Made by a program: the position numbers and the translations under genes. The notes beneath the pieces were generated by a model, which saw only the letters and a list, made by a program, of their open reading frames with translations, was not told where the DNA came from and made no database searches. Shown here piece by piece: positions 6,001 to 61,300 of a stretch of DNA of 64,000 nucleotides. The DNA comes from Macrocystis pyrifera (lineage: Eukaryota; Sar; Phaeophyceae; Laminariales; Laminariaceae). Each line of letters begins with the position of its first letter. Within the stretch, counting starts at the first letter, position 1. The stretch spans positions 868,001 to 932,000 of the forward strand of contig JASSKH010000021.1 of the NCBI GenBank assembly GCA_031763025.1. Reading direction: 5' to 3'.

Positions 6001-8111
6001 AGCGAGTATAAATACTATCGTCAACATGATCCAGTTTTGTTCGATGGAGAGTTCATGGGATAATTTCAAGGGAATAATAGCAAAAAAAAAACACGTGGTC
6101 ATGGTCTTCTACCCTAGCCCGTGACTGCCGTCACTGAATACGTCACGTAAGTGCTTCTCGCGATAGCTTACTACAATGCATTTGCAGATGGCCATGGGAC
6201 AACACGTGAAGTACCACACTCGTCGTAACCGTGCAGCAGCATATACGCAAAGCTCTTAGAGACATGATTCGATGTTACACACCTACAGCAGAATCTACAG
6301 TACCTGCTACATGACTGCATCACACTTATTCGGTCGTCCACATTCGAGGTTGAGCATTGGTCCTACTTGTACCTACTGTATATTCTGTACCAGGTATATA
6401 GCACGTTCAACCTGCAAGCATATCGTACGACGGGAATGGAAACTACCCAGCGTCATGATTGTCGAATCATCGATCGACCCGTTTTTTTTTACCGTTCTTC
6501 GTTGCCTCGCGCACACGTGATGCGAGCTCTTAAGGTGACAAGGAAGCAAGAGGACTTCCGTAAGCTGATACATTAATTCGCATCGAAATGACATGCAAAT
6601 GGCGCTTCGCCCTCCACATGAATTCCCATGTATACACGAAAGCGACGATTCTGTGGCATGTCACCCCGTGTCCGCCATCGTATCGCCAACCGCACCTGTG
6701 GATGCTCTTGTAGTACCTACCTATTAATAGTACTTGCTTTGAACAGTATAGTATACCATCAACCCCCGCCATACAATTTATAGGCACATGCCACATGCCA
6801 CATCGGCACCTTGTCTCGCACGCGAATGCATACCTCATATAGGGTGAATTTGTGGGTCATCCACGCCATTGTCACTAGCGGCCCAAGAAATAGGCAACAC
6901 GTTAGCGCCAGTGGCAGTACCAGCGCGACACCGAGGTTGTTCGTGTCTACACCAATCCATGTTCTGAGCGGCAGTCCGTCTTCCATCTGCAAGTGCGCGT
7001 CAAATACACGAAAAACGTTCAAACTTCTGCTGTTATATCTCGGTGCTCGCTACTATTAATAGCAAACAAACCACTTCAGGGCGAAGGACTTTGATTCAAC
7101 CGCGGGTGGAAGCAACGAAACCAAAAAACGAGCACAGGAAGCCGAAAAAAACTGACGCCAGTTTCGAAAGTCCACTGGCCCGTAACCTTGAGCACCGACA
7201 CGGCTTCTACACGCTGGGAGCGACATTTAAGTAGCCGCGCGACGCGCAAAGTCGCCAATCGCATCAGCACAGCTGCAGCAAAGCTACTATTAATGGAAAT
7301 ACTGCTGTAGCCCCATGTGCTACATAGGCATGGGAATATATTACTGCTGCATTAAATAGTACGGAGCCGGACCTGATCGGTAACCAGCCACTAAAACGGA
7401 ACCACAGTAATACCAGTATCGGCGGATCAACATGCTGCAAAAGAGTGGAGGTGAACACGATGATATGATATGATGGCAACAAACGAAAGCCCTGGGCAAA
7501 GAAGAGATGCGAGGCACAGAGACAGTTGGAGCAATGTGGCACTACGAACAACATAGTACCAGGTACCTCGTAGCCAGGGAGTAATACGACAAATCTCCGC
7601 AAAATATTTGTGGGTGGGAAGGCGTACCAGTAACTGGTAAGAATGCAAGAATAGCAACGCTATTAATAGTCTAATGCTGTGGCGTTTCCAGGCGTTTTTG
7701 CGCCAAAGTTGCCACCATACGTATATAGCTGAACGGGTTAAACTAAAGGGCTTGAACCGCTGTAGACACTCAAGCTCAAGACTCCAATTCATACTCAAAG
7801 AGGTACCCTTATTAGTACGTAACTCAAGAGTCTGTGTACTTGCTGGCTCAGAGCCGAGACGTCGATCGATTCTTGAAGATGCTCACCGGTCGAGCTAGGT
7901 GAGCCGTAGCCACTACAGTCACAAAGCTTGTACACACAACGGCCGCGAGTCTTGCTTTGATCTGCGAGGGAATATCAACATCAGGCATTAGGAGTGAGGA
8001 CATCAAGACGTGGAGGGCAAGATGCGGCGTATTTACGTATTGAAATATTGCAAACAGCAGCGCCGTAGACCTGTGAGCTCGTGAGTGTGTGAGCTTGTAG
8101 GCTCTATTCAT
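3090..8111 (-). CDS. RCE1: CAAX prenyl endopeptidase 2 (RCE1 family), complete, 6 exons
   Basis: Membrane protease of the ER that, in this family, removes the last three residues of farnesylated or geranylgeranylated CAAX proteins. Exons, 5' to 3': 7887-8111, 6834-6986, 5812-5913, 5125-5239, 4110-4241, 3090-3241. All join in phase (0,0,0,1,1) at GT-AG borders and give 292 aa, a normal family length. Exon 1 starts MNRAYKLTH and holds a first membrane segment (ALLFAIFQYV). Exon 2 carries CCLFLGPLVTMAWM. Exons 3-4 join as RNLVVGPLAEELVFRG, the EExxxR catalytic motif. Exon 5 gives AHFHHALEW, the conserved His box. Exon 6 gives RTGHLVSAVLVHVLCNIMG, with the conserved H and N. The stop is TGA at 3090-3092. 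The family call is secure. The least certain choice is the start: an in-frame splice acceptor near 8073 would allow an earlier first exon. Confidence 0.93.
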
Positions 8112-9560
8112 GAGCTGGGCTTACTAGCTCCGTACTGAGGTAGGATATATGCCCGAGTGCGAGAACAGGGGTTGGAATGTTCACTTTTATCTGTGCACGG
8201 CTCGTGGCACTGAAGCAAAATCTGCAGCGAGGACTTCAAACAGGTGCACATTCATATAATACCAGGTATATATAATATCGATACCATTCGAGGATGAAGA
8301 TCGAGGTGCGGGCTGGCTGGACTTGATCGCTATTGATATTAATAGTTGCTACTCATAGATTATTTGGGAGGCGAAATACATAACCTTGATATTTATCTCC
8401 ATTGCTAAAAACACAGTTCGAGCCACGAACGCACCAGTCAGATCAAAAGACGCAGAACTCCGCAAATTTACCGCACGCAACTATTAATATCAATATTACT
8501 AGTAACTGCTGGAATACCCGCCGACTATTGATTACTATTGATAGTGGGCGACTTTTAGTGAGCCAACTCACAGCCCTAGACATTTGATATAGGCGTCCAG
8601 CTAGCTTGGCCAGAGCTCGGGGTCCGGGGCATCTACTGGTCTACGACGTACACAGTCTCAGAAGAAACCGGAAATGCTGGCGTATGATGTACCAGGTATG
8701 GTACAGGCTGGATTTCGTATTTTGACAGTGTGTTTCGCATTATTAATAACTTCAGTACAAGGGGGGCTTCGCCGCGGCGGGCTGACGCCCGCCTGCGGCT
8801 CCGCGCATGCCCGTAATGGCTAAAAGGGCGTACCGGTGTGCAACTCGAGGCTGTTAGTGCGACAGTACTGCCAAGGGGTGCATTAAAAAAAAACATTTTG
8901 AGTGAAGAGAAAGAAAACGCTGCAGACACGAGAAAAACAAACATTGCCATCCGCCATCCGGCCCAACAACACATATCTCGTTCGTATACAGCAGCAAGCA
9001 GCACTACAATGTACTACGAACGAGACGCTCGGCGTCCGTACTCTATACTTCCTGTACAGGTAGATACTAACATTAAGTTGAGCAGCAGTCGATCGAGTTA
9101 ATCAACAGTTAGGGGTGCTAATTTGTGCTTATCGACCACAAAAAACAGCGACATCGACCAGCAAAAACAAAACATCCCCGCCAAAAACCGACGCCTCCAC
9201 CCACCGTAGAATTACTTGATTTCGGTGTATAAAATTCCGCATTATTCAGGAGCATAGCGCGGGAGATCGCGCGTGAATGTTGAACTTAAAGTTCGTGTAC
9301 GTCTCCAGACCTAACACGCCTCAATGGTGCAAAGGTTTAACTTTACATTGAAAAACAAACCAAGGTGAAATCGCCGCAAAACTGGCTTTTTTGGGTATAT
9401 TTCGAAGTAATGTAGACAAATCTCGACATCATTAGTTGTAATAGATGAAAAAAAAAACCTTGCCACCAGGATGACTGGGTTATGTACCATCTAGTAAAAC
9501 AAACCCCGCTTTATTTCACTACGTTGGAGCGGAGGGCTAGGTCTTTAAAAATAGGGTAAT
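8112..9560. other. Upstream region of the RCE1-family gene and intergenic DNA
   Basis: No recognisable exons. It contains several TATTAATA palindromes (8334, 8482, 8743), TACCAGGTA copies (8262, 8688) and a GC-rich palindrome at 8767-8811 related to the dispersed hairpin. The promoter of the minus-strand gene starting at 8111 should lie at the left end. I found no clear TATA element to name. Confidence 0.5.
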
Positions 9561-10180: not shown

Positions 10181-10227
10181 TGGCATCTCGTCCGCAGGTT
10201 CCGCGATCGACATGTTGAGGCCGCGTG

Positions 10228-11060: not shown

Positions 11061-11265
11061 CGCCCGAGGCCGCCCACGGTACAGCAGTCGAGACAGGGGA
11101 GCACGGTGGGGCACGACGAGGAAAGTTATAATGGCGTCCCCGATGGAGTTACTTTGTAGTTGGCGAGTTTCGTCCCCACTAAAGTCAAGTTGTGGGGTTA
11201 CACGATAAAAAATAAAAACGCCTTCACAATACAACCGAACCTCCACGCCTCGTGTGATACTGGTG

Positions 11266-11300
11266 CCCAATGGCAATGACGGGTACTCGTCATTGCCATT
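11266..11300. repeat. Short perfect palindrome around GGCAATGACGGGTACTCGTC
   Basis: TGGCAATGACG and its complement CGTCATTGCCA face each other across a few bases. A related unit with imperfect arms, AATGGGAATG...CATTCCCATT, is at about 14707-14735. No gene is linked to either. Confidence 0.5.
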
Positions 11301-12901: not shown

Positions 12902-12940
<39 letters not shown>

Positions 12941-14770: not shown

Positions 14771-14772
14771 CA

Positions 14773-15157: not shown

Positions 15158-15220
15158 CTATTACGGGGGACCATAGTAATTAGGACCAAATATTGTTAGT
15201 AAAAATAGGTAAATACAAGA
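15158..15220. mobile_element. MITE, left half of a split copy
   Basis: CTATTACGGGGGACCATAG followed by AATTAGGACCAAATATTG and AAAAATAGGTAAATAC matches the left half of the intact copies (compare 957-1069 and 51163-51275). It stops abruptly where the 15221-20354 tandem array begins. The missing right half is found at 20355-20408 in the correct orientation. Confidence 0.8.
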
Positions 15221-17870
15221 GCTTCGCATGGGTGTGCACCCATGCTCCGGATAAGGAAATATACCTCAGTGCCAATTCGTGATTACTTTTTTTAGCAGTA
15301 TAAATACGCCATTCGATCTTAGAAATAGTACGAACGTGATCAGGTCAATGCCAAGTGGTGCAGGAAAAAGGCAATGCCGAGTTTAAGTTCTCAGTTTTGA
15401 ATATGTCTCACTCGCATTACTATTGACCAACTTTTACTTGACTTTTATTATTTATTTTTGCGACGTTGTTTCGTTTTTTTTTCAGCGATCTCTGAAGCCG
15501 AAAAATCAGAACCGTCTACTATTAATATTATGGGGCAGGAAACCACCGATACTTTTGATCTTTGTCCTGGAGGGGGCAGAAGTCAGCTCAGATCTGAGAG
15601 GTTTCTCACATTTCTCAGAACTGAGATTACTTGCATTTTGTGGACCATAGTACTGCTGCCCTTTATCTGCCCAGTTGCCAAGTACCCCATACCCACGCCG
15701 AAGTATCATACGCACCTATCTACGGCAAGCTGTACCTACTGCCAACGGTGCTTGTGCAGGAGAGATGGCCTCTCCTTTTCACATGAAAGCGATAGCAGCA
15801 GTAGCAGCAGCAGCACAACAGCCCCATTGCTGCTGCTGCTGTGTGCGGACGCAGCCGCAACACCAGCAGCAGCACTACCGAAGCAGCAGCAGCAACAGCA
15901 GCAGCAGAAAACATATCAGCTTGCAGTATCCGCCCAAATTACTGCTAGTACAGGACGCGTTACGCGTATTTTTACCAACCAGTATACGCGCATTATCTAC
16001 ACTGGTATGAAATACTCCATCATGACTACCGGCAGTAATCGCAGCAGATATTCCGAGATGCTGCGAGTAGAAGCAGTATCAAACACCTGATACCTGATAC
16101 TTGGTACCTGATATCAATCGGCAATACAGAACAACCTGACAACCGCAAAGTACACTGCTAACATGGGCTGAATTCTCAGTGTGAACCCCGAATAATTCAG
16201 GTCGGATACACGTGAAGCACACGCAGCACAATATTCACAGCACCACAGAACCCCGATATACTGCCAGTACTCGCAGTGGAAGCAAACAGTGTCGAACCCT
16301 CGATTACCTCCAGTAGTGCTCGCCGAAATAACTTAACGTGTTTTCACCAGAAAATGGTAAGGCGAACATATTTATCTTGCAGTAGCATACCGGTACCTGG
16401 TAACGAAGGATCGTATCTTAAAGCGTGACTGTATGAAATAGTATCTTAAATTTCTTTATTAGTAACAGTATATACCTGGCAGCTGGATATGATTGAAAAA
16501 AGTGAAAACCGTCTGCTGTGAGTACGACCGATTGAGTGGTTGAAACTCAACTTTGTAAGCTGCGTTATTGCGTGATACGTCAGACACGCTCATCGGGCGC
16601 GCTTGTTATGGATATTGGGTTTTGCTTTGTACATCTTCCAAGTAGAATACCTCTGACCTACTGCTGTACTGTTGCTGGCGTAGTAGTACTCGTATTTCAA
16701 TGCGCCTCGAGAGATCAAACCTTGCAGCAGCAGTAGACAGTCCGGGCATGTACGACCACCTGTATGATATCCTCCCATGTATTTGGTCGGTTTTTCTTAT
16801 CGACCACACTCGGTCGAATTCATACTCTCCAACAACCTCCATCCCATTCCTCCGGCGAAAACAAATGACGTGCCGATTTTTATCCAACGATCTGGTAGCA
16901 AGAGCGGCGCGACTCCAAGAAGGCCCGTGTAGTCGACTCGAGAAGAGAGATGGGCAAGGGAAGACAGCCACCGAGTAAGGCAAGACCGAGGGGGTCGAAC
17001 AGGCCGATGGCGGCCCGCAAACCAAAGGAGTCGGGAGAATAAAGCGGTAGCATCAGCAAGGCCGAGAATCGAACCTCGGATAGGAAAGAACTACAATAAT
17101 AAGATCAAGTCTGTCTCTCTTTGCGGAGCAACAACAGCGAAACAAATCTCCAGGACCGCGAAAAATAGAACGTCCGTGTCTCCTCTCCGCAGCAAATATC
17201 CCTCGAGTTCGGGGTCGCCGCGCTCGTCGGCAGCGCGAGACTCTGAGACGCGCGCACGGGAGAACACCCGTCGGAGGTCGGCTCGCGCGACCGTCGAGGA
17301 AAGCGGTCGAAAAAGCAAGCACGAAAGCAGGGAAGCGAAGGCGTCCGGAGTCCCAGACAAAGTTGAAGATAAAATCGGAATTTTAGGGTTCGCTCACAGC
17401 GGCCGAGAAGGCGGAGAAGGATAATGATATATTTAGAACGTCCGTGTCTCCTCTCCACATTCATCGAGTTCGTGGTCGAAAACGGGACTGTCAGTTTGAA
17501 CCAATAAAAAATCGTTCGGATCCTGAGTACACGACTGCTGTTCACGCGTTCATGCGTGCCACCCTTGGACCTTTTAGAACGACAGGGAACTCAATTTCCA
17601 GGAGGGAAGAAAATAGAACGGTCGTGTCTCCTCTCCGAGCAAATATCCCTCGAGTTCGGGGTCGCCGCGCTCGTCGGCGGCGCGAGACTCCGAGACGCGC
17701 GCACGGCAGAACACCCGTTGGAGGCCGGCTCGCGCGACCGTCGAGGAAAGCGGTTGAAAAAGCAAGCACGAAGCCAGGAAAGCGAAGGCGTCTGGAATCC
17801 CAGCCTAAATTCAAGACGAAATCGGAAGCGAATGCTTCGCTCTCGGGCGTCGGGAATCATTGTATATATA
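15221..17870. repeat. Large tandem unit A (about 2.65 kb)
   Basis: First of two direct copies. It opens with the perfect hairpin GCATGGGTGTGCACCCATGC (15226-15245), then GGAAATATACCTCAGTGCC, which recurs at unit B. It carries CAG/CTG runs (15799-15910) and ends at GGGAATCATTGTATATATAT. Relative to unit B it has an extra segment of about 270 bp (17184-17457) flanked by the direct repeat AGAACGTCCGTGTCTCCTC. The TTCGATTC-containing stretch at 17055-17085 reads on the minus strand as a tRNA T-arm (CCGAGGTTCGATTCTCGG). ORFs up to 210 codons occur but are not conserved as frames between A and B, so I call no gene. Confidence 0.85.
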
Positions 17871-18448
17871 TCGCATGGGTGCCTGCCGGCACCCATGCTC
17901 CGGATAGGGAAATATACCTCAGTGCCAATTCGTGATTACTTTTTTTAGCAGTATAAATACGCCATTCGATCTTAGAAATAGTACGAACATGATGGCAGGT
18001 CAATGCCAAGTGATGCGGGAAAAAGGCAATGCCGAGTTTTCAGTTCTCAGCTTTGTCTCACTCGCATTACCATTGACCAACTTGTACTTGACTTTCAGGA
18101 TTTTTTTTTGCGACGTTGTTTCGTTTTTTTTTCAGCGATCTCTGAAGCCGAAAAATCAGAACCGTCTACTATTATGGGGCAGGAAACCATCGATACTATT
18201 GATCTTTGTCCTGGAGGGGGCAGAAGTCAGCTCAGATCTGAAAGGTTTATCACATTTCTCAGAACTGAGATTACTTGCATTTTGTGGACCATAGTACTGC
18301 TGCCCTTTATCTGCCCAGTTGCCAAGTAGTACCCCACACCCACGCCGAAGTATCATACCAACCTATCTACGGCGAGTTGTGCCTACTGCCAACGGTGCTT
18401 GTGCAGGAGAGATGGCCTCTCATTTGCACATGAAAGCGATAGCAGCAG

Positions 18449-18484
<36 letters not shown>

Positions 18485-20354
18485 AACAGCACCATTGCTG
18501 CTGCTGCTGTGTGCAGACGCAGCCGCAACATCAGCAGCAGCACCACCGAAGCAGCAGCAGCAGCAGCAGCAGACAACATGTCAGCTTGCAGCATCCGCCC
18601 AAATTACTGCGAGTACAGGACGCGTTACGCGTATTTTTACCAACCAGTATACGCGCACTATCTACACTGGTATGAAATACTCCATGACTACAGGCAGTAA
18701 TCGCAGCATATATTCCGAGATGCTGCTATTAATAGTAGGAGCAGTACAGTATCAAACACCTGATACCTGATACTTGGTACATGATATCGATCGGCAATAC
18801 AGAACAACCTGACAACCGCAAAATACACTGCTAACATGGGCTGAATTCTCAGTGTGAACCCCGAATTCAGGTCGGATACACGTGAAGCACACGCAGCACA
18901 ATATCCACAGCACCACAGAACCCCGATACACTGCCAGTACTCGCAGTGGAAGCAAACAGTCTCGAACCCTCGATTACCTCCAGTAGTAGTGCTCGCCGAA
19001 GTAACTTGACGTGTTTTCACCAGAAAATGGTAAGGCGAACATCTTATCTTGCAGTATTAATAGTCGTATACCGGTACTTGGTAACGAAGGATCGTAATTT
19101 AAAGCGGGACTGTATAAAATAGTGTCTTAAATTTCTTTATTTTGTAACAGTAGATACCTGGCAGCTGGATATGATTTTATAATGAACGAAGGCAGCTGGA
19201 TATGATTGAAAAAAGTGAAAACCGTCTGCTGTGAGTACGACCGATTAAGTGGTTGAAACTCAAGTTTGGAAGCTGCGTTATTGCGTGATACGTCAGACAC
19301 GCTCATCGGGCGCGCGTGTTATGGATATTTGGTTTTGCTTTGTACATCTTCCAAGTAGAATACCTCTGAACTACTACTACTACTATACTGATGTACTGTT
19401 GCTGCCGTCGTAGTACTCGTATTTCAATGCGCCTCCAGAGATCAGACCTTGCAGCAGCAGTAGACAGTCCGGGCATGTACGACCACCTGTATGATATTCT
19501 CCGATGTGATTGGTCGGTTTTTCTTATCGACCACACTCGGTCGAATTCATACTCTCCAACAACCTCCATCCCGTTCCTCTGGCGAAAATAAATGACGTGC
19601 CGATTTTTATCCAACGATCTGGTAGCAAGAGCGGCGCGATACCCCGGGAAGGCGCGTGTAGTCGACTCGCGAAGAGAGAGGGGCGAGGGAAGACAGCCAC
19701 CGAGTAAGGCAAGACCGAGGGGTTCGAACAGGCCGATGGCGGCCCGCAAACCAAAGGAGTCAGGAGAATAAAGGAGTCGTTAGTATAAAGCGGTAGCATC
19801 AGCAAGGCCGAGAATCGAACCTCGGATAGGAAAGAACTACAATACAATAAGATCAAGTCTGTCTCTCTTTGCGGAGCAACAACAGCGAAACAAATCTCCA
19901 GGACCGCGAAAAATAGAACGTCCGTGTCTCCTCTCCATATTCTTCGAGTTCGTGGTCGAAAACGGGACTGTCAGTTTGAACCAATAAAAAATCGTTCAGA
20001 TCCTGAGTACACGACTGCTGTTCACGCGTTCATGCGTGCCACCCTTGGACTTTTTAGAACGATAGGGAACTCAAATACCAGGAGGGAAGAAAATAGAATA
20101 TCCGTGTCTCCTCTCCGCAGCAAATATCCCTCGAGTTCGGGGTCGCCGCGCTCGTCGGCGGCGCGAGACTCCGAGACGCGCGCACGGGAGAACACCGGTC
20201 GGAGGCCGGCTCGCGCGACCGTCGAGGAAAGCGGTTAAAAAAGCAAGCACGAAGCCAGGAAAGCGAAGGCGTGTGGAATCCGAGCCTAAATTCAAGACGA
20301 AATCGGAAGCGAATGCTGCGCTCTCAGGCGTCGGGAATCATTGTACATATATTT
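17871..20354. repeat. Large tandem unit B (about 2.48 kb)
   Basis: Second direct copy of unit A, opening with a hairpin at 17873-17898 (GCATGGGTGC...GCACCCATGC) and ending at GGGAATCATTGTACATATAT. Most of its length is above 90% identical to unit A by eye. It has longer CAG runs (18437-18575), a CTATTAATAG insertion at 18726-18735, an extra CTACTACTACT run at 19370-19386, and lacks the 270 bp segment present in A. Confidence 0.85.
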
Positions 20355-20408
20355 ATATAGGTTTTTGTGTTTACCATAGGTCCTATGTACTATGGCCCCT
20401 CGTAATAG
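20355..20408. mobile_element. MITE, right half of the split copy
   Basis: ATATAGGTTTTTGTGTTTACC, ATAGGTCCTATGTACTATGG and CGTAATAG match the right half of the intact MITE at 51163-51275. With 15158-15220 it completes one element interrupted by the 5.1 kb tandem array. Confidence 0.8.
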
Positions 20409-20830
20409 TGTGCAGAAAACAGACGACAAAAACTCTCGATTCCTCTCCGTTGGCACAAAACAGAACCTTTTGAATGTTTTGACGAAGAGCGTAGGACGCC
20501 GCGGCCAACCTCTCGCTCCCTAGATCACGGATTGTAATGATACCTCCGAGGCCATCATTTACACTCATTGGCCTTGCCCGGTACGAAGTAAATATATAGG
20601 TTTTTGTGTTTACCATAGGTCCTACCATATGTACTATGGCCCCTGGTAATAGTGTGCAGAAAACAGACGACAAAAACTCTCGATTCCTCTCCGTTGGCAC
20701 AAAACAGAACCTTTTGAATGTTCTGACGAAGAGCGTAGGACGCCGCGGCCAACCTCTCGCCCCCTAGATCACGGATTGCAATGATACCTCCGAGGCCATC
20801 ATTTACACTCATTGGCCTTGCCCGGTACGG
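20409..20830. repeat. Tandem repeat, two units of 244 bp period, with a MITE half in between
   Basis: 20409-20590 and 20653-20830 are almost identical (TGTGCAGAAAACAGACGAC, then CTCTCGATTCCTCTCCGTTGG and so on to CATTGGCCTTGCCCGGTACG). A second copy of the MITE right half (20593-20652) sits between them. The duplicated unit was therefore MITE half plus downstream flank, which dates the duplication after the MITE was split. Confidence 0.85.
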
Positions 20831-22450
20831 AGCTCGTTGGCCGTGGGTGGATTATATGTCAAGATCGAAGGTCAATCGTCGCGTCACTGCGGGTGTGCGA
20901 GCTGCGAGCTGTGTCTTTCTTCTTATTTTTGTGTGCGGCGTGATTTAGCGTGGTTCCCGTTAATACAGCGATTTTATTGGAAGATGGCTCCCGTCGTTCG
21001 CGTTATTTCAGCCATTTGATTGGAAGATAGCTGGCGTCAACTAATAACAGCAGAACAGCAGTAGATTTGAGATTTGACCCTTTGCTCTGGGCTGCATGTC
21101 GAGGATATACCGGTAGCAAGTTATCGGAACGACAGGGTGGCGACGCGGTAGGAGTGCTGGACCGCTGGTGCGAGCCACGGAGCATTCGAGGCTACAACAA
21201 TAGTTCGCACAGATATACCAGTACGAGTACGAGGCATCCTCTCATTCGAGCTTCTCAGGATCTACGGGCATTTTACTTCTAGCAGGACGCCAATGCATGC
21301 TGCGAATGACGTATTTCTTTATGTCATACCTGAGAGGGATGGCTTCTTGGCAACTTCCTCAACCTTCCGGGGACAAGGTACAGACTCACGACGAATGCTA
21401 TGCTTCCGCACCAACACCATGCCCATGCTTGCCACGGTGGCCTGTTGCCGAAATCGAAGCCGCTCATACACGAGGTGTGGCCTTAGGGATAGCGTTGCAG
21501 CGTTGTCCGGAAAGGCTTACGGTCTCCGCTGTACTGGTACGTATGATGAATACGCCCACAGAATTCAAATTTTAATGCAGGGTGTTCCAAGCATTTTAAA
21601 GGCGGGCAGTACATTGTGTAAGATGTCCCAATGTCCCCTTGAAAAAAAGATCGAGTAAAATACGTACCCAGGTACAGCCATCATGGTATGTATACTCGTG
21701 GTCGTGTACCCCGTTTATCTATTTTCTACTTCTTGAGGTTGCCTTCAATAACCAGGAGGCGCTGTATGTAGTCAACACGAACATATCTCTATTGCTCTGC
21801 TGGTTGTTCTCATGTCAAGACACGAACAGAATGAGCGATACGCACACTGACTGACGGCCCTCCGTGTACTGGTAGTATTTTTCACGCAGAAAGAAGAATA
21901 AAGCAGTGAAAACTATTAATAGGTCGGGTCGAGGCGGGCCTCTTTACACTCCTCTAAGACTTGCACTCTCTGGCCGTACGAAGGGGGCGGGGGGTGCCGT
22001 TTGCAAGGAATGTCGAACAGACCGTACAGAAAGATGTTTGTTGTAGGGTAGCTTTCTCTAGGATATCGCGCTGATGGATTCCAGTAATAATATGTCGACA
22101 AACTAAAACTGCCTCATCACGACCGACCGTGACTTGTTAATTGTACTTTTATTTTCGGCTTCGCCAAAATGGCGTAACATAATGTTACTGTACCAGAGCT
22201 GGGCGAGACCGAGCAGCAAGATGACGTTAAGGTACGTGCACGTTCGTGGGTTTCCAGTTAACACTGTGTTATACCGCGTTGCCGTGTGATCGCTCCTCCT
22301 GTCAGTGCTATAACACTATGTTACGTTGCCACGTTCGTTCCTGTGTTAGGCCCCATAACGTAGATAAAGGTGTTATCCGAGTGTTATTACGTTATCCGAG
22401 AAACGTAGTGCTCCAACGACGCATCAACAAACAAACCAGATAGATAGGTA
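20831..22450. other. Gene-poor stretch
   Basis: Open frames of 60-121 codons at 20837-21660 have no recognised motif and overlap in several frames. A CTATTAATAG palindrome is at 21913-21922. I see no exon series and no RNA gene. Confidence 0.45.
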
Positions 22451-22699: not shown

Positions 22700-23240
22700 A
22701 TTTTCTGATATAATAAATAATAATTAAATATCAGAAAAATAATATTTATTAAAAATCATACCTGATGATACCTGGTGCGAAGTATGGATCCTTCCAGCAA
22801 GAGGTTTAGCAAAGTAACGTCGTCCAGGTCACGGGTGCGAACCTCACTTCGAATGTTTTTTTTTTTACAGAAACGCTTGCGCGTGCCTACAAAACAAAAC
22901 ACATGTCCCTCGTTCTCCAGGAAATAAAACGAAGCGGGTAGGGCAGCGTACAGACGTATACGGTTCTGACGCCCTAAAGATCCCGCTGTTCAGAGGGGGG
23001 GAGAGTGTTATAAGGATTATCCTGGGCTGGGTATTCGATCGATCTTTTACCCCTATAGCTCAGTTAGTAACACCCTCACATAAATATATATTAATACCAG
23101 GTAGGTTTTTATGTATATCATAGGTCCTATCAACTATGGACCTCCGTTATAGTAGTAGTCGTAGCAGAAGCAGTGGCAGTAGTAGTAGTAGTAGTAGTTT
23201 TTGTCAGGTTCTTGACATGAGGAAATTCACTTTTCTTTAA
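22700..23240. other. AT-rich spacer with a MITE remnant and an isolated tRNA A-box
   Basis: 23043-23075 contains CCCTATAGCTCAGTTAGTAA, which matches a tRNA D-arm and pol III A box, but no matching tRNA body follows. 23098-23155 is the right half of a MITE (GTAGGTTTTTATGTATATCA to CTCCGTTATAG). A short (GTA)n tract lies at 23150-23200. Confidence 0.55.
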
Positions 23241-36633: not shown

Positions 36634-36919
36634 GATGAAGAGGCTGCTAAGTCAGAAGTTTGTCAGAATCGGTCTGCACTATTATTAATTATTAATATTT
36701 GAGATGTAGAGAGGTACTCCTTTTGTTGCTCTCCTGGTGGCAATTATTTTTTCTCAATTTTAAGGAGTTCGACTGGTTCGGGTAGCATGTTGGTTCAAGT
36801 TGGCTTCGAAGACTTGCCAGCAGGAACATTTTACTTGTACAAGTTTACAAGTTTACGTTCCGACACCTCACTGCACTGCACTGCGCTCTGCCAAGTGCAC
36901 AGGGACGCAACGACACGCG
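36634..36919. promoter_or_regulatory. Putative divergent promoter between the BSD-domain and AMP deaminase genes
   Basis: Only 286 bp separate the ATG of the minus-strand BSD gene (36633) from the candidate ATG of the plus-strand AMPD transcript (36920). The middle is AT-rich (ATTATTAATTATTAATATTT near 36681-36701; AATTATTTTTTCTCAATTTT near 36740). Its role as a shared promoter is inferred from position only, and depends on the first AMPD exon being right. Confidence 0.45.
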
Positions 36920-37003: not shown

Positions 37004-37633
37004 GTGAGACGGACGTGGTAGTTCGGTACGGTAGGTAAGGTATCGATCGAGAACCTTGAAAACTTGTACCAGGTACCTGCTGCTGTTAGTCGACGCGAGC
37101 CATATAGGCAACCTACGGTGGGAAATAAATAGCGCCGATTCGACGACGCAATTATCTGTTGATTAGTTATGGCCCGTGGAGCTAACATCAATCACATTCA
37201 CTATCAAGTAGGGAGTATGGTGTCTGATGCCAGATACCTCCTGCCTGGAATTCGAGAAAATGCGGAACATTTATTTGTTTTTATTAATATTAATAGCAGT
37301 ATTGATAGAAGCATTGATTGAAGAGATACCAGGTATCCATGGACTTTACCTACAGTACGCATGGTACGTGCTTACGAGTAGCCAACATCAACATGCATAT
37401 GTTGCACCCTACACCATCGAGCTTACCCGTTATCCGTGTTGGTTCTCCATCCTTTCGTAGACATCCTATCATATCATAGGCAGAGGCCCCTGGTATGGTA
37501 TCATACGAGACAGAGAAAAAAGTACGTTGTAAAAGATTTGCGATACTCAACAGCGTATCTGACGGTACCTGTTTCATACTCTGGTATACAAGCATACACC
37601 CGGTACGTACGTACCTGTGATCAATATATAATA

Positions 37634-44600: not shown

Positions 44601-47600
44601 CTCTGCGTGCATGAACCAGAAACACCTGCTGCGCTTCATCAAGCACAAGCTAAAGCGGTGTCCCAACGAAGTCGTCAGCTACCGGGACGGGCGCTTCATG
44701 ACCCTCAGCGAGGCAAGCTACAGTAGCTGACCAGAAAACAATCAAGGTAGCCTGTGGAAGGCCATTGGTATGGTGATGTTACCCTTTGGTGGCAAGGAGG
44801 AATCAACGGAACGTAAAAGTACAACCATCATAACTAACTTATTTGGGCGCGAGTTTAGAGGGCTACGACAGTAGCATGTACGAATTATTACTGCTTTTGT
44901 TGTGGTCATCAGCTTCTCGTCATTGTGTACGTGAGAGTGACCAATACGTGACCAATACATGCCACGAGGTTTTCATGTATTTTTGGGTGTGACCTGGCCA
45001 GTTATGTAGAGAATTGTTGTTGGCTTCATCTCCTAGGTTTCTTGTGGCGCTCGTCAGGTTCTCATCATTGTTAGCGTCAGACTGACCAACACCGCCCTCA
45101 AACATGCGGCCCAGGTTTTCAAGTCTCTGCGGCTTAACGCTTACGACCTGAGCGTCGATACGCTGGACATGCACGCCAGCAACACTTTCCACCGCTTCGA
45201 CCGCTTTAACCTCAAGTACAACCCAGCGGGCCAGAGCCGCTTACGAGAGATTTTTCTCAAGACCGACAACCTCATCGCGGGCCACTATCTCGCACAGGTG
45301 CTGTGATGCGTAAGGTACAGACAGGGCATGCGCACTTACGCTACTGTAGGAGTGAAAACCGACAAAGTTGAAAGTTGGCAGGATCTTCTAGAGGCTTGTC
45401 ATCTTATAGAGGTGTGCAGTGAGGCGTATGATTGTGTAGGGGTCATGTAGAGCGTGCGAGCTAAGTGATGGCGGACAAATTTGGCAGGCGCTTCTGTTGA
45501 TGGATATTTTTGTGATGTAGAGGTGTACCGTACCGTACTATGCACTGCCAGGCACGGCGTATAGGGCATACGCGCTAAAGCTACTGTTGGAGTGATGACG
45601 GGCAGAGTTGGCAGGCGTTTCTAAAAGCTCATCATATTCTGGAGGTGTACCGTACTATACACTGGCAGGCAAGCCAAACAGCATGTTGCTTAGCCTTCGG
45701 GTTGTCATCCGTCAGTCACGCCTATTTCGTGTGGATGTTATGTCATGTAAAAATGCAGGTGACTCGTGAAGTGATATCTGACCTGGCGGCGAGCAAGTAC
45801 CAGATGGTGGAATGGAGGTCAGTGTTAGGCTCTCGCCTGGGGGCATGCCGGGGTTCGTAGTTCCGGCTAATCGGTATTTGGTGTCGTTGGGGCTCGTTAG
45901 GTCCCTTCCACACGTCGGACATATCACCACCTACACCAAAAAACACCATGTACACCCTACAGTCTACACTAAATTATGTAGATCATCTGAATGCTAACCT
46001 ACCATTGTGAGATATTGTGCAGGTTATATCTGTAAGTACACAGATCCACTCAGGAAAAGGGTGCTAGATCATCCATATTATACGGCGTCCACCCTACCCT
46101 AACACAACATGACCTACATACAGATCATACAGATGAGGGATCTATTTATTCATCTGATCTATCTGCCCTGAAAGACTTACAGATCCGTCCGATGTGTGGT
46201 TTCTTCGAAAGACTGCTTTTAATAGTGGGCTCAGAGATTCCTTTGTCGTGTTGCCGCGGTGGCATTCTGATTCTCCCCTCTCTCTATCGGCGCTGCGAGC
46301 TACCTTCGGTTACATTAGCCTTTGCAGACCTATAACAGTGAGAGGTGGTCTAGTCTAGTGTGACTGAGAGATATCATGTTCCGCAAGTGTCGTATATGCA
46401 ACGCGTTGAGTCGTAATTCGGAAAGTAAAGCACACTTCGCCACCCATCCGTAGCCCGGTAGACAGACATCGCTGCTTCGTGAGGTCGATATGCTGTAATC
46501 AGTAGTAATCGTTATTTTACGTCATCAACCTCCCTCTCTTTTCTGTCGTCAATTTTCGCCTCTGAAGTCCTGAGAAGGTTGATTGACATTCTAGTGTCCC
46601 CTCGTTTATGCTACCGAACTCAGATTGAGCATCTACGGTCGGCGACTGAGCGAGTGGGATAAGCTCGCACGCTGGTTTTTCACGAATCGGTTGGCGCACA
46701 ACAACGTCCGGTGGCTGATCCAGATCCCTCGGTTGTACTACATCTACAAGAAGATTGGCGAGGTACGGGAAAAAGTCCGCCAATCTCCACAACTTGCCGC
46801 CCTCCCATTGAGTGCATGGTAGACTTCCGTAGGGTGAGAGAAAAGCGTTTCAAACATCGCACAGACCATCGATCCCTACGTGATGAGCTCGATATTTCAG
46901 GGAAGATATATTCCCGATATGTATGAGCTAGCTCATGTTGCCGGGTGGGACCCGTATTTTCTGCATGATCTGGCACATGTCTCCTAGATCTGTACTGTAC
47001 AGATCGTGCACAACAACTCACAACGGCATGCTAGAATCTTCTTGTCTATCTGATCTTGATCGTGATTTGTCCTGCAGTAGATATGAACTTGTGCGCTGAA
47101 GCACACGGATTGTGGAGGTTGGACCGTAAATCGTACTAATTCGAGCAGAGGTGAGTATGAATTGCACTCGATGTGGGCGCTCTGACAATGTCGAGTCTTG
47201 TTATTTCCAGAGTTTACGAAACGCTGCGAGTGCTATATCGAACGCTGCGATTGCCGTTTACGAGAGGTTGGAATCAGTCGGTATACTCAGTATGGGGTTG
47301 AGCTGCCTCTCTGCTGGAACGTGGTGGCTTGTATTGTCAGGATTGCCGCCGACCAGCGAGTGCCGGCTCTTGAATACCTGGTAGCTATTAATAGCTCTTC
47401 TGTTACGTACTCGTAAGGATCGCGCCCTGTTTGCACCGCGTTGAACATAACGGCAAGTGCTTTGTCGTTTCCAGGTGCACGTGTTCTCCGACATGATCAA
47501 CAACATCTTCGCGCCTCTTTTCGAGGTGTCGGTCAACCCAGACGCAAACCTCGCTCTGCATGCCTTCCTCAAGACCATCGTGGGCTTCGACTCCGTTGAC

Positions 47601-50600
47601 GACGAAAGCAAGAGAGAAACGGTACAACTACACCACAACAGGTACAATACATGCGGTATATATAATACATCCGATGCCGAAAGTCGCAAGTGCACGCCAA
47701 AACGTGCGGTAGATTATAGTCCCGGTATGCGGATCATCCAGGCATTCGCCTCGAACTACACCACAACAGATACGCGCAACAGATACATGCGGTATGATAC
47801 GTGCGATGCGAAAAGTCACAAGTGCGTGCTGAAACGTGCGCTAAAATATATATGTTCCCATTGTGCGGGCCATCTATTAATAGGCGTTCGCACCGATGAT
47901 TTGGAAGGGCCCGCCTAATCTCTTACCTTAGTTGGTTTTGAATGCCATTCTCAGCAGAAAGGAGGGAGTTTCTTGTTGTGTTCACACCGCCTGTATCGTC
48001 AAAACTGCTCCCAGCGTGGCTTATATCTTCTAATAGTGGTGTAAGAGTACTGTAAGAGAAAGCGGCAATCACGACTAAGCTGACGCAAGTCAACAACCGG
48101 GGTTCTGCATGAACCCAATGCGCGACACTAAATAAACCAGGAACCGGGGCAGACAGACAAAAGAGGGCAGGCCTGCATGCCTTGTTCATGAAGTAAGCAT
48201 CACGTAAAGTCACCAAACTGAAGCTTTAAGCTTTTCAATCGATCGGCTGTTGGCCTCGAGTCAGAGTATGTCGCTGGACTACAAAACTGCCTGGGTATTA
48301 CAAGTACCGAAGTGGATTGGTGCAACTTTTTGTTCTCTGTGTGCGGCGAAGCCTCCAGTTTTCTCAGGGAAGTTCTAGTTGCGGTGACCGCCATGATCAT
48401 TCTGGTGGCTTGACTGTTGTCTTACAAGTAGTCATAGAATGTAAATGTAGTCGTTCGCTAGCGAAATGTGAGGCTTCATGTATTCAGGGGGACACTATTT
48501 GCTGCAGACCGTGACACTCATGGACCTATTCCATGATTCCGTGCCGGCAGATATCTCCCTACTCCGCAAGAGTGGGATCTGGCGGACAACCCCCCATACT
48601 CTTACTGGAGCTATTACCTGGCTCAGAACATCGCCAGCCTCAACCGCCTGAGGATGTCCAAGGTATCGCATTTTAATCATGTTTGTGGACCGCAGGTTAC
48701 ACAGCCGTCTCCGTGTGTTGCATGTTTGTGTTTGACATCAATTTGTGAAGTGAAGTTAATGTACTTTCTCGTGCAAATAAAGCTGCCTTGATGATCAGCC
48801 GATGTGGTGAGCATAGCTATTGCGGTCGTTGGTGCGAGCAGCGTGTCGTAGGATGGTCTTGTCCGGGAAGGCCGACTATGCGCTTCTGGTACCCTCAACT
48901 CGTAGACCCATACCCGACCGTGGGCGTGCGTGCGTGTTGGGTTCGTCTTGAAATGCTTAGGGGGCTGAACACGTTCGAGTACCGTCCGCATTGTGGAGAG
49001 GCAGGCGACGTTGAACACCTAGCGGGGTGCTTCCTTCTAGCGGACCAGATCAACCACGGCCTCCTCCTCCGAAAGGTCCCAGGTAGGCGCTGGCATGAGG
49101 GGGGGGGGGTACTGCAGTCTCATTCCTTAGGGTAAGGGTGAAGCGGCGAATCTAAAACATGCCTCGATACATCGGAGTCTCTCACGAGCGACAGATGTAT
49201 ATTTGCGATGTGCCGTGTTGGTATCATTGGTGCCATGTGATTCGTGCGGCACGTCCGGTTGAAGTATCTAAATGCTGACCGGATGCTACATGAGCTACGA
49301 GCTATCAAGGGGGGAGGAAGGAGTTTCGCGTCGCTGCCCGGATCTTTTGATATGTTTGACACTCGCTACTCGATGCGGCGACATATAATATGACATCCTT
49401 CTCACGCGTGCCACACACCACAAAAGGTCTCCAGTACCTCTACTACCTCAAGCAGATAGGCGTTGCGATGAGCCCGCTGTCCAACAACAAGCTGTTTCTC
49501 GACTACGCGAAGAACCCGTTTCCACGGTACTTCGCTCAAGGCATGAACGTGTCTCTCTCCACCGACGACCCGTTAATGCTGCACTACACCAAGGATCCTC
49601 TGCTCGAAGAATACAGCGTCGCGGCCCAGGTACAGTGTAAAATATACCTTAAGGTACATGGTATGATATGAATACACATTCGTTCCGCCCGTCGGGCTGG
49701 TGGAGTTGGCGTGTTGGTGGCAAGCTTTGCACATCACTTCTAAAGCCACTGGCTCCTCGAGGCAATGCGGCCGGTCCTATTGAGTGTCATTCTGGCGCAG
49801 ACCGTGCGTACTATCAAGAGGTACCATGGCGTCACTATCTGATGATGATGAGGATGATTATGTTCTCCCATTAGGTCAGTTCGCTGAAGTCTACCCCGTG
49901 GTCACAAAAAAGGCTTAAAAGCGCCCCCATGGAAAAAAAAAAAACAATTACAATAATACGCGGACCGCAGTACAATACGCAAGGAAACGGGTGATACGGG
50001 CTGTAGTATACCATCCCGTACCACTTGTAGACTAAATTATACTAGAAAAATATACGTTGTACTACCGTACTACCTGGTATGATGTAGCCGGTAGCATTGT
50101 GTGCGTATTGAAGCCTTCGAACCATGTATGGTATTGCTGTGATTTTTCCGTTGGCGTGGACGTGATATAGGTGTGGAAGCTGTCGTCCGTGGATCACTGC
50201 GAAGTCGCTCGCAACAGTGTGCTGCAAAGCGGCTACGAGCACCGCTTCAAGCAGCACTTCCTGGGATCGAGATATGATGAGGTGTGCTATATTTCCCGCA
50301 TATTGGTCGTGAAATACCGGAGTTGCAGATCGTGGGCATCCGACGGTAAAGCAGCACTGTAGAAGAGACCACTTGACAAAAGTATGCTGTGCCTGGTACT
50401 GCTCTAGCAGGTATGTAATACTGGTACGTAGGTAAGATCCTGGTGTGGTATGATATGATAATTCGAAGTATGATATGATCCTGATATGATATGATGTCGT
50501 ACGATATGATATAATTGGTATGATATGATGTGATACGATATGATAGTATACGATGCGATACGATACTGTACGATATTATCACCATGTGGCGAACGCATCG

Positions 50601-51162: not shown

Positions 51163-51275
51163 TATTACGGGGGACCATAGTAAATAGAATTAACAAATGT
51201 TAGAAAAAATAGTCAAATATATAGGTTTTTATGTATACCATAGGTCCTATTAACTATGGACCCCCGTAATAGTGT
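51163..51275. mobile_element. MITE, full-length copy with intact termini
   Basis: CTATTACGGGGGACCATAG to CTATGGACCCCCGTAATAG, with interior AAATATATAGGTTTTTATG as at 20355 and 23098. This copy shows how the two halves at 15158 and 20355 fit together. Confidence 0.9.
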
Positions 51276-54200
51276 AGATTGGTTGACTGCCCCTATCGGA
51301 GTATTCGGCCCTATAATGGACCTTTTGACCAAACGCCAAGTGTGTGATTATCCATCAACACTGTCGTCAACTGTAGAAATGATGCGCCGCATTGTTTAAG
51401 CCCGCGTCCCCGGCGGTCTAGTAGCACTACTGTAGTGGTAAACCTCTCAACTACTAAGGTGGATTTCGCGAGCCCCCCTCCCTAAGGAACTTTTTCTTGT
51501 GCAAAAATTGACTCGCAAAAAGCGCCTATTGTACCAGGTGTATGCACAATTCGACGCGAGTAGACGAGACAGAAACGTACTTTAGTCTTCTATTGATAGC
51601 GATCAAAACGAAGGCGCGCCCCGTATGGGCGGAAGGGAGGAGTGCCTGCTCTGTCACCCCGGATATTTATTACGCAAAGGAAGGAGCTCGAGAAAATAGG
51701 GCAAAGATAATAGATGGGATAAAAAAATACCAGGCATAAATTTAATCAAGTAGTTGGCAATTTCGTTATGCTGTATCTGGAACAGAAGAGATAACTGTGA
51801 CTTTCTGGCCAGCTTGCACCGTCCGCCCCCTTGAGATGCCCTGGAATATGGACAGTACTCTTACGGTTTGTTCCCGGACTTGCACGCAGCTGATGAGCCC
51901 CGTTTACTAGGGCTGTGAGTTAGCTTCCTACCAAAGACTACACTGCCACAGTACTGCTACAGTAGAAAGCAGCCATACCTGACTTGGTATCTTATCAATA
52001 ACAAACACGTCCAGCCACAAACACGCCAGTCAGAAGGTACATACCTGGTACCAAGCAGACGCAGAATTCTGCGAATCACCATGCGCAACTAACTGAAATG
52101 CCTACCATGGTAACAGCCAACTACTCTACAATAGTGGTAGTAACTACCAGGTAGTTGGCGACTTCTATAGTAGTCACCAGACCAACTCACACCCCTACCG
52201 CTGTACTGTTTGTGCTGTTTCTACTGCTTCTATTGTTTCTTCTGTTTGTACTGGTTCGATTGGTCTGGGGGACTATTCATTCGAGGTGCTTACGTCCGAG
52301 CTGCAATTCGTCAAGATGGGCGGGGACGTTAGGCTGTCGCTTGAGGAGCGGGCGGTAGCAACAGCCTCAGGGGAGAGACGCACGTAACTGCTGCTGCTGC
52401 CGCTGCTGCCTCCGGCTTTCCAAGTCGCACGCACAGCTTGTTATTTTTTCCCTATTTCGAGCCACTCCCATGTGCTCCTACGAGTACGCGTACCGCTGCA
52501 TATATCTACTACTGCAGCTTCCAGCTTGCTCCCTAACCCGGGCCCCCCTTATCTTTGGATAATGTGTGGTGAATATGTTTATATACGCAAGGTTAGGTGT
52601 GCTGCCATTTAATATCTGGTAGTAATAGTACCATCACGGGGAAGATATACTACAGTAGTTATAGTATCTATAGGGCAGGCGGTTAGTTGTTAATTTGTGC
52701 GAAGCAAGTCACAGCAGTATTCGCAATTACGTTGGTGTAACTATATACCCGGTACGACCATAAATCATACCTGATACTAGGGGTACAATCATATTAATAG
52801 TCTACTATTGACACTGTAGTAGTTGATTGTAGGGCAGGGCAAGGGTTGCCCCGCTGTTCCCTAGGGTTTTACCATAAAAGTAGGGCAGGGCAAGGGTTGC
52901 CCTGCTGTTCCCTAGGTGGTACCATATAACAAAAAAAGGTTGGACAGAGGTATGAAAATTCTTTCGCGACGTCGATATTTGCTTCGTAGAATATTACTTG
53001 TTTGAAGATGCTGCGGTTGCCGCTATTTCGAAGCATAAAAACAAAACATAACTTCACAGTCGCATCGCGCAGATTGCGATGACCTCGTCGAGTCTACTAT
53101 TGACACTGTAGTAGTCGATATCAATAGTGTGTTATTCGATCAACACATGCATTGATGACTGAGTATGCCTTCATGTCACAGCTATTGGATCGATGCATTC
53201 CATTTGAGTCTTACTGAGTCTTGTGATTGTGATAACAAGACAGTGCGCGAGGGGTACTGAATGTTGTGGCCAAATCAACATGAGATGATGAAAATCGACG
53301 AGCTATGATATGAGAATGCTGAACCCCATGCGCAACGAAAGCGAAGGCACAAAAAGCCATAGCGGGCGGGGGGAGGGAAGACACCTGTGAGCACGGCTAC
53401 TGCTTTGTACGTGTGTACGCTATGTGTGCTAGTACAGAACGCCGCTGAGGCTAAAACTCCCTGTGAGTTGAGCTGGAAAGTAAAAGTGATACCTGGTAAT
53501 AAATAAGAAAGAAAACATTGATGATCTCGATTATTGAATAGTTCTTTATATCACACTTTTTTGTAGCTCGACTGCTACAACCCAACCTAACCCAACCCGT
53601 AAACAGAAGACAGGGTTTCCAACCCAGCCCGTAGACACACGACAGGGTTAATGCCCACCCAGGCATGAAGTACAGCCAGTGCCAGAATTCCCGGTACGAC
53701 GTGAAGACCTCACTATGACTCTCAAACTCTTCACTCTAGCGCGTGGACTTCCTCTAAGCGCGAAGGCTAAAGTAAAACCGGGAGTAGTCTATTAAAAGGA
53801 ATACAAGGTAGATATATTTTCATTACTTCCAACACCCACCATCAACCACCCCTATGACTTTAATTTTTCCAAACTTTTCTGCAAACGGCAGAACGTTTTC
53901 AGATTCCCCCTCCCCCGCTCTCTCGCTTTCGTGATGGTTGTTTTATCTGCCTTACCCGTTTATCTCCAAGAGCAAGCAACGTACAAACAATGCACTGCTC
54001 TTATGGTTGTCAACTACCTACACTGTGAACCGCCGCAATACGTTAATGAAGAGAATATTTAATATCCGCACTTCGCCGCCTTATGTAGCCAAGGTGCCCC
54101 AAGCACCGGAGTACTCTTATTAACAGGAATGGCATTTACAAACAGGGAGTGAACAGGGAGTGAACAAAAAGCACCGACTAAGTGGTGACCTAGGTGTGCC

Positions 54201-58300: not shown

Positions 58301-61300
58301 CATTGTATCATACGCGTATGCACGATACAATATTACGACGTTATGAAATATCTGCTTATTACTGCTGTACATAGAGATATGTACAGCAGAAGACTCTTTT
58401 AGAACTGCACCTACCTGTCATTTGGGGACAAAACATACATACATAGCAATAGTGTTGAGATGTTCCTATTGACTGAATCGCTGCTTTAAAAAAAATCTCG
58501 ATGACTCCGTCAAACATGTATCATATTTGTCAGTATGCTAATTAATGTACCATGGTATAGCTTTGTTGCGGCGCTGACGGCAAATAAGGCTTCTCCCGCA
58601 CAAAACCGAGGACTGCCCATAAAAAAGTTTGAAAGCACTCCACGCGTGACTCACACACGGCACACACGGCACACACGGCACACACGCGTAACACACGCGT
58701 AACACGCGTAACACACAGCAGTACAGGAGTGCAGGAGTGCAGGAGTGCAGGAGTGTAGGAGTACAGGAGTGTAGTACAAGTAGTGGGATAATATTTACAG
58801 GAATAGAAAAGGATGCGCCGAAGAAGGGGCCGGAACTGTTGACCACACTCGGCTGCCCACGAAAATTGCACTGCAGCAGCAGTGTTTTACCTGCACTGCT
58901 CATGTTGTAGCACGCGTGTGGGTTAGTAAGACGGTCACGATGCTCGATTTTGAACTTGAAGGCGCGAGTTACAGTAGATCCAAGCAGAGATCATGTCTTT
59001 TTTTTTCATTTTTCATTTTTTTTTTTTCAACTTTTTTTTTTATCATGTATGTAACCCAGACACCGCAGACAACAAACAGCACAACATGAGCAGACAGTAG
59101 ACAGCAGTGCAGGCCGCGTGCTACAACCAGCTGGCTACCGCAGGAAAAAATCTTTGAGGGCTTGCTGCGCGCTCTGGAGTGCACAGATCGCGCCCGGACC
59201 TCGACCAATGTGTCTGGCTGGGCTTCCCGTGTCGACTACGTAGCGTTTCGCCAAAAAGTGCTTGTACGAAGAGATATGTTCGAAAATGTACGAATTTTTC
59301 AGAATTGTAACTATTAATATACCCCTTAAGACAACAGGCAACCAGGGGACGCAAACAGCTACCTTAGGGAGATTCAGTATCGAAAAGTGTCCACTACTGC
59401 ATCTTCTGGCATGTCCACAGGTTTACTACTGATGTGTAGGCTTGTAGCTCTTACTCGAACCATAACATGCAACCGACATAGATACCTGGGAGCGTCGCCG
59501 ACAACGACCCATATATATACTATCACTCGGTTTCTCCTTCGGTAGTGACCTGAGTCCGTCTATCTAGCCCGATTGGCAGCGATGCTGGTTTAGGGCTCCT
59601 GCTGAGTTCAGGGGTCTCGGGGCTGGGACCGGCTTGCTTTCCTGGCGAAAACGTCATATATAGACGATCTAGATGGTGTAAATGATGCAGATGATCTAGA
59701 TGATTCGGTTTGGGGACCGAAAATAAGGTAATGTTTGTTATCCAGCACAGCAACGATTTGAACCGTGTACAGTAGTAGTATTATTAATAATACTGAGTAA
59801 TATTAATAGCAGTGTAAGCGCGCAGAAGTGCCAATGTATCAAATAAATCAATAGCATCACGCTGCACCTGTGTCGTATGAGTCCTCCTTCAATGCCTTCA
59901 ATGCCTTCAATGCTCTCAATGTTTTCAATGCCTTCAATCAATGGCTTCAATGTATGGAGCTCGGACAGCTCTACTGCTATAATTCACCATCTCCCAACCA
60001 AGCAGTGATCGATGAACCCTAATATGATCTAATTGCCATCATTTTTCCCGTCTGTGCTAGTGAAGGGGTCAACAACAGCCCCACAACGGTTAACAAAAGC
60101 CAGCAGCAGTATTACAGTAGTAGTGTTTTCATTGAGTGCATTCATTGAGTACATTGAATGTGCGCAATGGTCACCATTCGTCCGTGCCACGAAGAACATC
60201 AACCATGGGTCATGCCTGAAAATACAGCGGTATCATATACAAAATATGATAACTAATGGGTGCCTCTCGCTACTAATTATTTACACTATAGGAACTCGAG
60301 ATAGCGAATATCTGTAGCTGTCGACAACTGTGTCCGATGCATCTGTGCGAAAACAAAAAACGGAAGTTTCGGTCGGACGGCGCCTCAAAATTGATAAAAT
60401 TAAGCCATGAAGGCTTGTAGAGGCATGCCCTATTTATTAGCTGGCCGTGTACATTTAGCAACTCGCTCGTGATAACTAATCAACCCCTTACAACTGTACT
60501 CCCGTTTGGGGCACACATGACCTCAAAATAGAGTTGGATACCAAACATATGTTTCAGTAAAAGTGCTGCATTTTCTCGCGGGAAGTGGTGCATACTCAAC
60601 CGCAAGCGACGCGCGTTTTTCTGCATGGCAAGCTGTCATGCGCTTCCCTACACAAAAGCAGGCGATGCGCCGAAGTTTCGCATGACTACTGTACCTCTCC
60701 TGCAAACCTGATCATCCGGCCATATGTCTTACCGTCTCAGTCCCTCGACGCCAAGCAAGTAAAATGCACTGGCTAGAATGCCGACGATGAAGGCGCCCTC
60801 GGGGTAGACGAGCGGTCCACTAGCACTGATCGCCACCAACCCGGACAGAATGCCATTGTGCCATTGTTGAGCTGAAACCGCCACATCCACGTTGACAAGT
60901 TTACGACGAAAGAAGACAAGATGTTTTGTGTATCAAGGGAGAGGCTCGTGGGTAAGTTTCCGCTGGAAATTACGGACCGATCTCCCCAATCCGTCTGCTC
61001 AAGCCAATCATTTCACACATCGGACACATGAGCATCGAAAAAATCATCATCCTCATCGTCTACTACTACTACTAGTAGAGCTTAAGCTGCCATTGAGAGA
61101 TGTTGTGCAGGGTCCGCCTAGTTAACATCCAACCCGGAACATAGTGCTAGATCAATCAGAGTATACATCTCTCACCACGCAACATGAGCTAGATTGTACA
61201 GATCAGGACTACATTCGCCCTGAAAGTTGTAAATCATTAAACTAAGTGGGGGTGATCTGTAGGTGATATGTCATGTATGATATGTCATGTATGTAACCTA

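Follow-up and report, generated by a model that had tools for sequence, protein, structure and literature searches.

Excision of the Tc1 transposon of C. elegans leaves the footprint TA-CA-TG-TA, in which two bases from each end are retained between two TAs. Stowaway-like and mariner elements are described as duplicating a TA and being released by staggered cuts within their ends, so that TA and terminal bases remain after end joining (PMC4561436), and footprints with one to four end bases have been reported along with the insertion of an element into the TA of a pre-existing footprint (PMC1925063). Once a DNA transposon has been excised, there is often little left to count in one genome. But what if the scar is a rare, uniform word? 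Such a case is suggested by a stretch of 64,000 nucleotides from the Macrocystis pyrifera contig JASSKH010000021.1 (positions 868,001 to 932,000, here called the window), which holds copies of a miniature inverted-repeat transposable element (MITE) and many copies of the palindromic word TATTAATA. This word (CTATTAATAG where C and G flank it) is very probably the excision footprint of the MITE, which inserts at TA. Read as scars, the copies of CTATTAATAG are best taken as a record of more past insertions than there are surviving MITE copies.

The family resembles the footprint-leaving Stowaway and Tc1/mariner elements described in grasses (PMC1925063, PMC4561436, PMC3660474) in its short non-coding element and its TA duplication; if the words are scars, it would also share footprints made up of TA and a few end bases, and an insertion into the TA of an older one. 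Unlike grass Stowaway, it has TTACGGGGG ends and a uniform TTAA scar word, of which the window holds 28 (some non-independent) beside 4 complete and 4 partial elements. The 8-bp palindromic scar would be shared with Tc1, but the MITE ends in TT...AA rather than CA...TG and no transposase was seen in the frames scanned. In the brown alga Ectocarpus, a eukaryote outside plants, fungi and animals, Mariner-Tc1 elements are likewise abundant and mostly non-autonomous (PMC12477816); the main text of that paper does not contain the words footprint or excision. Among the matches listed from the open-access literature, no title or opening of an abstract describes such dense footprints or the motif, which is a weak negative.

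An over-represented palindrome and a TA-flanked MITE

The original prediction had placed eight copies of CTATTAATAG in the window, and all eight lie exactly where it put them; 100 dinucleotide shuffles gave a mean of 0.08 and at most 1. It had also given the inner word as occurring more than 20 times, and the core TATTAATA was counted 28 times. Markov simulations (200 per order) gave means of 0.57, 2.1 and 7.1 for orders 2, 3 and 4, with maxima of 3, 6 and 15, part of the signal being already contained in the order-4 model. TATTAATA is the most frequent palindromic 8-mer of the window, followed by GTACGTAC with 10. The excess is strikingly specific: among the 16 palindromic TA-N4-TA words TTAA reaches 28 and the next ones 5, and among the 16 palindromic contexts of TTAA the TA..TA context reaches 28 and the next ones 2. 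The preferred flank is TAC...GTA. Truly independent sites number somewhat fewer than 28, because those at 8337 and 8482, and those at 37863 and 39703, are paired copies.

A profile search located the MITE copies of the window. Together with three complete copies on contig L002 and one on contig L001, they give eight complete elements of 103-106 bp, all non-coding. Every one ends in GTAA and all begin with TTAC, bar one window copy with ATAC; over the first 16 bases, the terminal inverted repeats of the four complete window copies have 0, 2, 3 and 1 mismatches. The termini are those originally described, CTATTACGGGGG...CCCCCGTAATAG, and the right end of the copy at 31920 does read CGTAATATTAATAG. 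The flank check that had been proposed showed TA on both sides of all four complete window copies, as well as of the L001 and L002 copies. Outside this TA, the left ends taken from window copies have C and most of their right ends have G, while C and G are both seen on either side of the L001 and L002 copies. The bases beyond TA vary among copies, and conservation therefore ends at TA.

The two additional contigs carry the MITE at L001:1-115 and L002:1-2060 and are binned as Saprospiraceae and Phycisphaera; L002 also holds one CTATTAATAG, at 1539. Our guess is that L002 is chimeric or a contaminant, as by eye its first ~2 kb look eukaryotic and the remainder does not, perhaps coming from an algal host. 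Viral contigs scanned with the MITE patterns gave no matches. Within the window, two MITE halves (15159-20407) bracket 5.1 kb (15216-20346) that hold a tandemly duplicated unit of ~2.65 kb. A MITE may have been interrupted here, or the whole may be a larger relative that shares its ends; the ten frames between the halves have no Pfam match.

The word and the element also share their surroundings. At occupied sites, the three bases next to TA on its outer side were used to build a score matrix, which was applied to TA-X-TA words and to random TA sets. With the matrix from nine window flanks, TATTAATA (52 flanks, 26 of the 28 sites) scored 0.20 against -2.33 for random TAs (sd 0.37), and none of 10000 sets scored as high; the matrix from the eight L001/L002 flanks alone gave -0.71 against -2.35, again with 0 of 10000 as high. 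Flanks of TATCATA, TACCAGGTA and TACGAGTA were not above chance at the 5% level, and those of TACAGTA were so with the window matrix (114/10000) but not with the L001/L002 matrix (1216/10000). The TATTAATA flanks match the occupied-site flanks, and thus the TTAA words show the same target preference as the MITE. At 31921-32033 a MITE sits in one TA of an existing TATTAATA word; here, as at the double word at 37282-37295, a site seems to have been used more than once.

Scar, empty site and the duplicated TA

What does a site look like without the word? A 2-kb duplication (15224-17217 and 17871-19958) is 95.7% identical between its copies, and all three of its TATTAATA loci differ. At 15520, copy 1 reads CTAC-TATTAATA-TTATGG and copy 2 CTAC-TA-TTATGG (6-bp gap). 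At 18727, it is copy 2 that carries the word, GCTGC-TATTAATA-GTAG, and copy 1 that reads GCTGC-GA-GTAG (6-bp gap), and at 19055 GCAG-TATTAATA-GTCGTATACC in copy 2 stands against GCAG-TA-GCATACC in copy 1 (gap of 9). Copy 1 has one of the insertions and copy 2 the other two, which would suit gain after the duplication. Over 13 aligned duplications, TTAA loci appear as insertions in 3 of 5 cases, with an exact 6-bp gap in 2 of 5; the 28 other TA-N4-TA loci show two exact 6-bp gaps, both overlapping the 15520 site. With these two set aside, Fisher's test of 3/5 versus 0/26 gives p 0.002, or p 0.02 when only exact 6-bp gaps are counted (TTAA 2/5).

These loci bear on which TA is duplicated on insertion. 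The original prediction took the inner one as the target (CTAT-TA/CGGGGG, a slash marking the border of the element), but the duplicated loci and a (GTA)n site in L002 favour the outer one, so that the MITE would be written C-TA/TTACGGGGG...CCCCCGTAA/TA-G. The L002 copy at 560 breaks the (GTA)n run as ...GTAGTAGTAGTAG-TA / TA-GTAGG; removing the element and one outer TA leaves an unbroken (GTA)n, whereas the inner-TA parse leaves TATTAATA within the run. The L002 copy at 1607, in a TAC-rich stretch (...GACTACGAC-TA / TA-CTACGCTACGAC), points in the same direction less clearly, the copy at 1420 and the L001 copy are uninformative, and the flank-matrix test is neutral between the two parses. If the outer TA is duplicated, the empty site is simply TA, which often has TAC-TA-GTA-like surroundings, and CTATTAATAG is the product of imprecise excision. 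The idea of a scar and its link to the MITE find support. The palindrome as the empty site itself and its origin by precise excision do not, since the partners carry TA or GA and never CTATTAATAG.

How would such a word be made? A MITE of ~105 bp with the ends 5'-TTACGGGGGACCATAGTAAATAGGACC... would go into a TA and duplicate it, with a preference for TAC-TA-GTA-like surroundings. On excision, a transposase would make its cuts two bases in from either end, so that TA+TT stays at one flank and AA+TA at the opposite one; host end joining would fill in and join both sides as TA-TT-AA-TA. Because the MITE ends are inverted repeats, this scar would necessarily be an 8-bp palindrome. Such a course of events would make the element Tc1/mariner-type and Stowaway-like.

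Other superfamilies were considered and rejected. piggyBac elements have TTAA duplicated on both sides, while the complete copies here are flanked by TA..TA and not TTAA..TTAA; hAT elements (Ac/Ds) make an 8-bp duplication, and none was noted around the complete copies. Excision of piggyBac is described as seamless at TTAA (PMC7351741). The palindromic scars of hAT are described as derived from flanking DNA (PMC4561436), whereas the scar letters TTAA are constant here despite differing flanks. PIF/Harbinger (Tourist) is described with a 3-bp duplication and generally precise excision (PMC4561436), and the left TTA and right TAA of our element are not direct repeats.

Arguments against excision footprints, and other explanations

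Several observations weigh against excision as the origin of the word. The L001 and L002 copies were found by patterns containing TATTACGGGGG (left) or CCCCCGTAATA (right), so that their end conservation and flanking TA are partly selected. Pfam showed no transposase domain in the 30 of 148 stop-to-stop frames (at least 95 aa) that were scanned. The paralog evidence amounts to three loci in one duplication, and a 6-bp loss is possible at each of them; the partner at 18727 has GA instead of TA, and the gap at 19055 is 9 bp. Elsewhere, TATTAATA at 37863/39703 is identical in both arms of its duplication, and the site at 59312 and its diverged partner are equal in length, so neither lends support; no locus was found filled by the MITE in one copy and carrying a scar or plain TA in another. 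The words at 8337 and 8482 sit in the inverted ends of another structure (8331-8495). Finally, TA-sharing among words of the five enriched TA-X-TA classes introduced below is at chance level (6 versus 5.5 expected), for which reason chains of adjacent scars were rejected as extra proof.

Could CTATTAATAG be a dispersed palindrome that was there beforehand and served as the preferred target, with the inner TA duplicated and the element beginning at CGGGGG? The occupied sites fit this arithmetically (CTAT-TA/CGGGGG...CCCCCG/TA-ATAG), and at least some Tc1-like elements are described as preferring AT-rich palindromes (PMC7913693). We nevertheless consider it unlikely: the dispersal of the palindrome would be left unexplained, the partner at the three duplicated loci is TA or GA and not the palindrome, and the (GTA)n run of L002 would first need to be interrupted by it. 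A role of TATTAATA as a functional or binding motif, or its spread as a repeat word in some other way, with the MITE resembling it by chance or making use of it, would agree with a word that is palindromic, dispersed and set in TAC...GTA, yet this flank preference is the insertion-site preference of the MITE and the duplicates differ by a unit insertion at TA; we give this very little weight. Replication slippage or simple-repeat drift of TAA/TAC triplets has scarcely any probability in our view, even if triplet runs are many in the window, TATTATTA is likewise found often (28 times) and the indels between duplicates include several changes by triplets. TTAATA is no triplet repeat, the insertions at 18727 and 19055 lack a neighbouring copy on which slippage could act, and the remaining palindromic TA-N4-TA words occur at most 5 times each.

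If TATTAATA is the excision footprint of the MITE, one assembly might be enough to estimate how far a single family has turned over (insertions minus survivors), and flank preference would be usable as a family label beside scar counts. An over-represented palindrome in a eukaryotic genome, then, does not have to serve for binding or as a target.

Table 1. MITE copies, paralogous pair and TATTAATA sites (window coordinates)
Position	Strand	Feature	Remark
958..1065		Complete MITE, TA duplications at both ends	Element 960-1063
15159..15216	+	MITE left half	Tandemly duplicated ~2.65-kb unit comes next
20346..20407	+	MITE right half with right TA	Element part to 20405
20587..20651	+	Second, duplicated MITE right half	Element part to 20649
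23100..23151	+	MITE right half with TA, then GTAGTAG	Element part to 23147
30312..30420		Complete MITE with flanking TA	Element 30315-30418; left end mutated (ATACGG)
31921..32033		MITE in one TA of footprint (element, TA, TTAA, TA)	Element 31923-32025
51163..51271		Complete MITE with flanking TA	Element 51165-51269; top profile score
15224..17217	+	Paralogous pair, copy 1	Scar/empty test
17871..19958	+	Paralogous pair, copy 2	Scar/empty test
6722..6729		TATTAATA in CTATTAATAG	
7054..7061		TATTAATA in CTATTAATAG	
7661..7668		TATTAATA in CTATTAATAG	
8337..8344		TATTAATA	Left inverted end of 165-bp TA-flanked structure; perhaps no independent scar
8482..8489		TATTAATA	Right inverted end of 165-bp TA-flanked structure
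8741..8748		TATTAATA	
15520..15527		TATTAATA	Plain TA in paralog near 18167, which differs by exactly 6 bp
18727..18734		TATTAATA in CTATTAATAG	Copy-1 paralog exactly 6 bp shorter, GA for TA
19055..19062		TATTAATA	Paralog has TA; gap of 9 bp is TTAATA plus 3 bp alongside
21914..21921		TATTAATA in CTATTAATAG	
23089..23096		TATTAATA	One TA common with TACCAGGTA
32026..32033		TA-TTAA-TA footprint	First TA is right TA of MITE 31923-32025
36690..36697		TATTAATA	
37282..37295		Double word TA-TTAA-TA-TTAA-TA	Sites 37282, 37288
37863..37870		TATTAATA	One arm of 99.4% identical inverted duplication
38854..38861		TATTAATA in CTATTAATAG	
39032..39039		TATTAATA	
39703..39710		TATTAATA	Partner arm of 37863 inverted duplication
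40024..40031		TATTAATA	One TA common with TACGAGTA
42228..42235		TATTAATA	
43743..43750		TATTAATA	
47386..47393		TATTAATA in CTATTAATAG	Probably intronic, upstream of an AMP deaminase exon
47875..47882		TATTAATA in CTATTAATAG	Downstream of same AMP deaminase exon
52792..52799		TATTAATA	
59312..59319		TATTAATA	Diverged duplicate near 12455 of equal length
59782..59789		TATTAATA	
59801..59808		TATTAATA	

Other enriched words and the setting of the window

The TTAA word is accompanied by further TA-X-TA words in excess of an order-2 expectation. With both orientations counted, CAG/CTG (TACAGTA) occurs 38 times versus 13, TCA/TGA (TATCATA) 36 versus 9, CCAGG/CCTGG (TACCAGGTA) 26 versus 0.8 and CGAG/CTCG (TACGAGTA) 18 versus 2.6; triplet-run words such as TA-CTAC-TA and TA-ATAA-TA are enriched too and were left out of the class counts. 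Five classes, chosen for their enrichment (TA-TTAA-TA, TA-CWG-TA, TA-CCWGG-TA, TA-CTCG-TA and TA-TCA-TA), total 146 words in 64 kb versus ~26-29 expected, an excess of roughly one word per 0.5 kb. Are these all scars? It is possible, if rather doubtful, that they are family-specific scars of several TA-inserting transposons and form a main short dispersed repeat in the genome. If so, they would offer a readable count of past transposition, in which scar letters and flanks would assign each word to an element family. For the other enriched TA-X-TA words, which are candidate scars, no element whose ends match was identified. Between duplicates, TA is replaced by TACAGTA once (18745) and by TACCATA once (20623); the TACGAGTA words are unchanged in 4 of 4 cases and the TATCATA words in 4 of 5, and the sole TACCAGGTA word has no clean gap.

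With 48.6% G+C, CAG/CTG runs and sparse coding, the window looks eukaryotic in character. At ~47.5 kb lies a stretch that matches AMP deaminase (E 1.2e-16 in Pfam; E 2e-11 to the solved structure 2a3l) and is flanked on both sides by CTATTAATAG (47385, 47874). A frame on the minus strand (29524-30021) contains a BSD domain, and neither Rfam at gathering thresholds nor ARAGORN gave matches. Three further structures were noted. The one at 8331-8495 is 165 bp long and TA-flanked, with perfect 16-bp inverted ends, TTGATATTAATAGTTG, that contain the scar word. A large near-perfect palindrome at 23981-25172 has arms of 239, 217 and 151 nt in three successive pairs, with 95-97% complementarity, around a 13-nt centre. 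The inverted duplication at 37633-39940 has an aligned length of 866, is 99.4% identical across a 577-nt spacer and contains CCAAAATCAG as a repeat inside.

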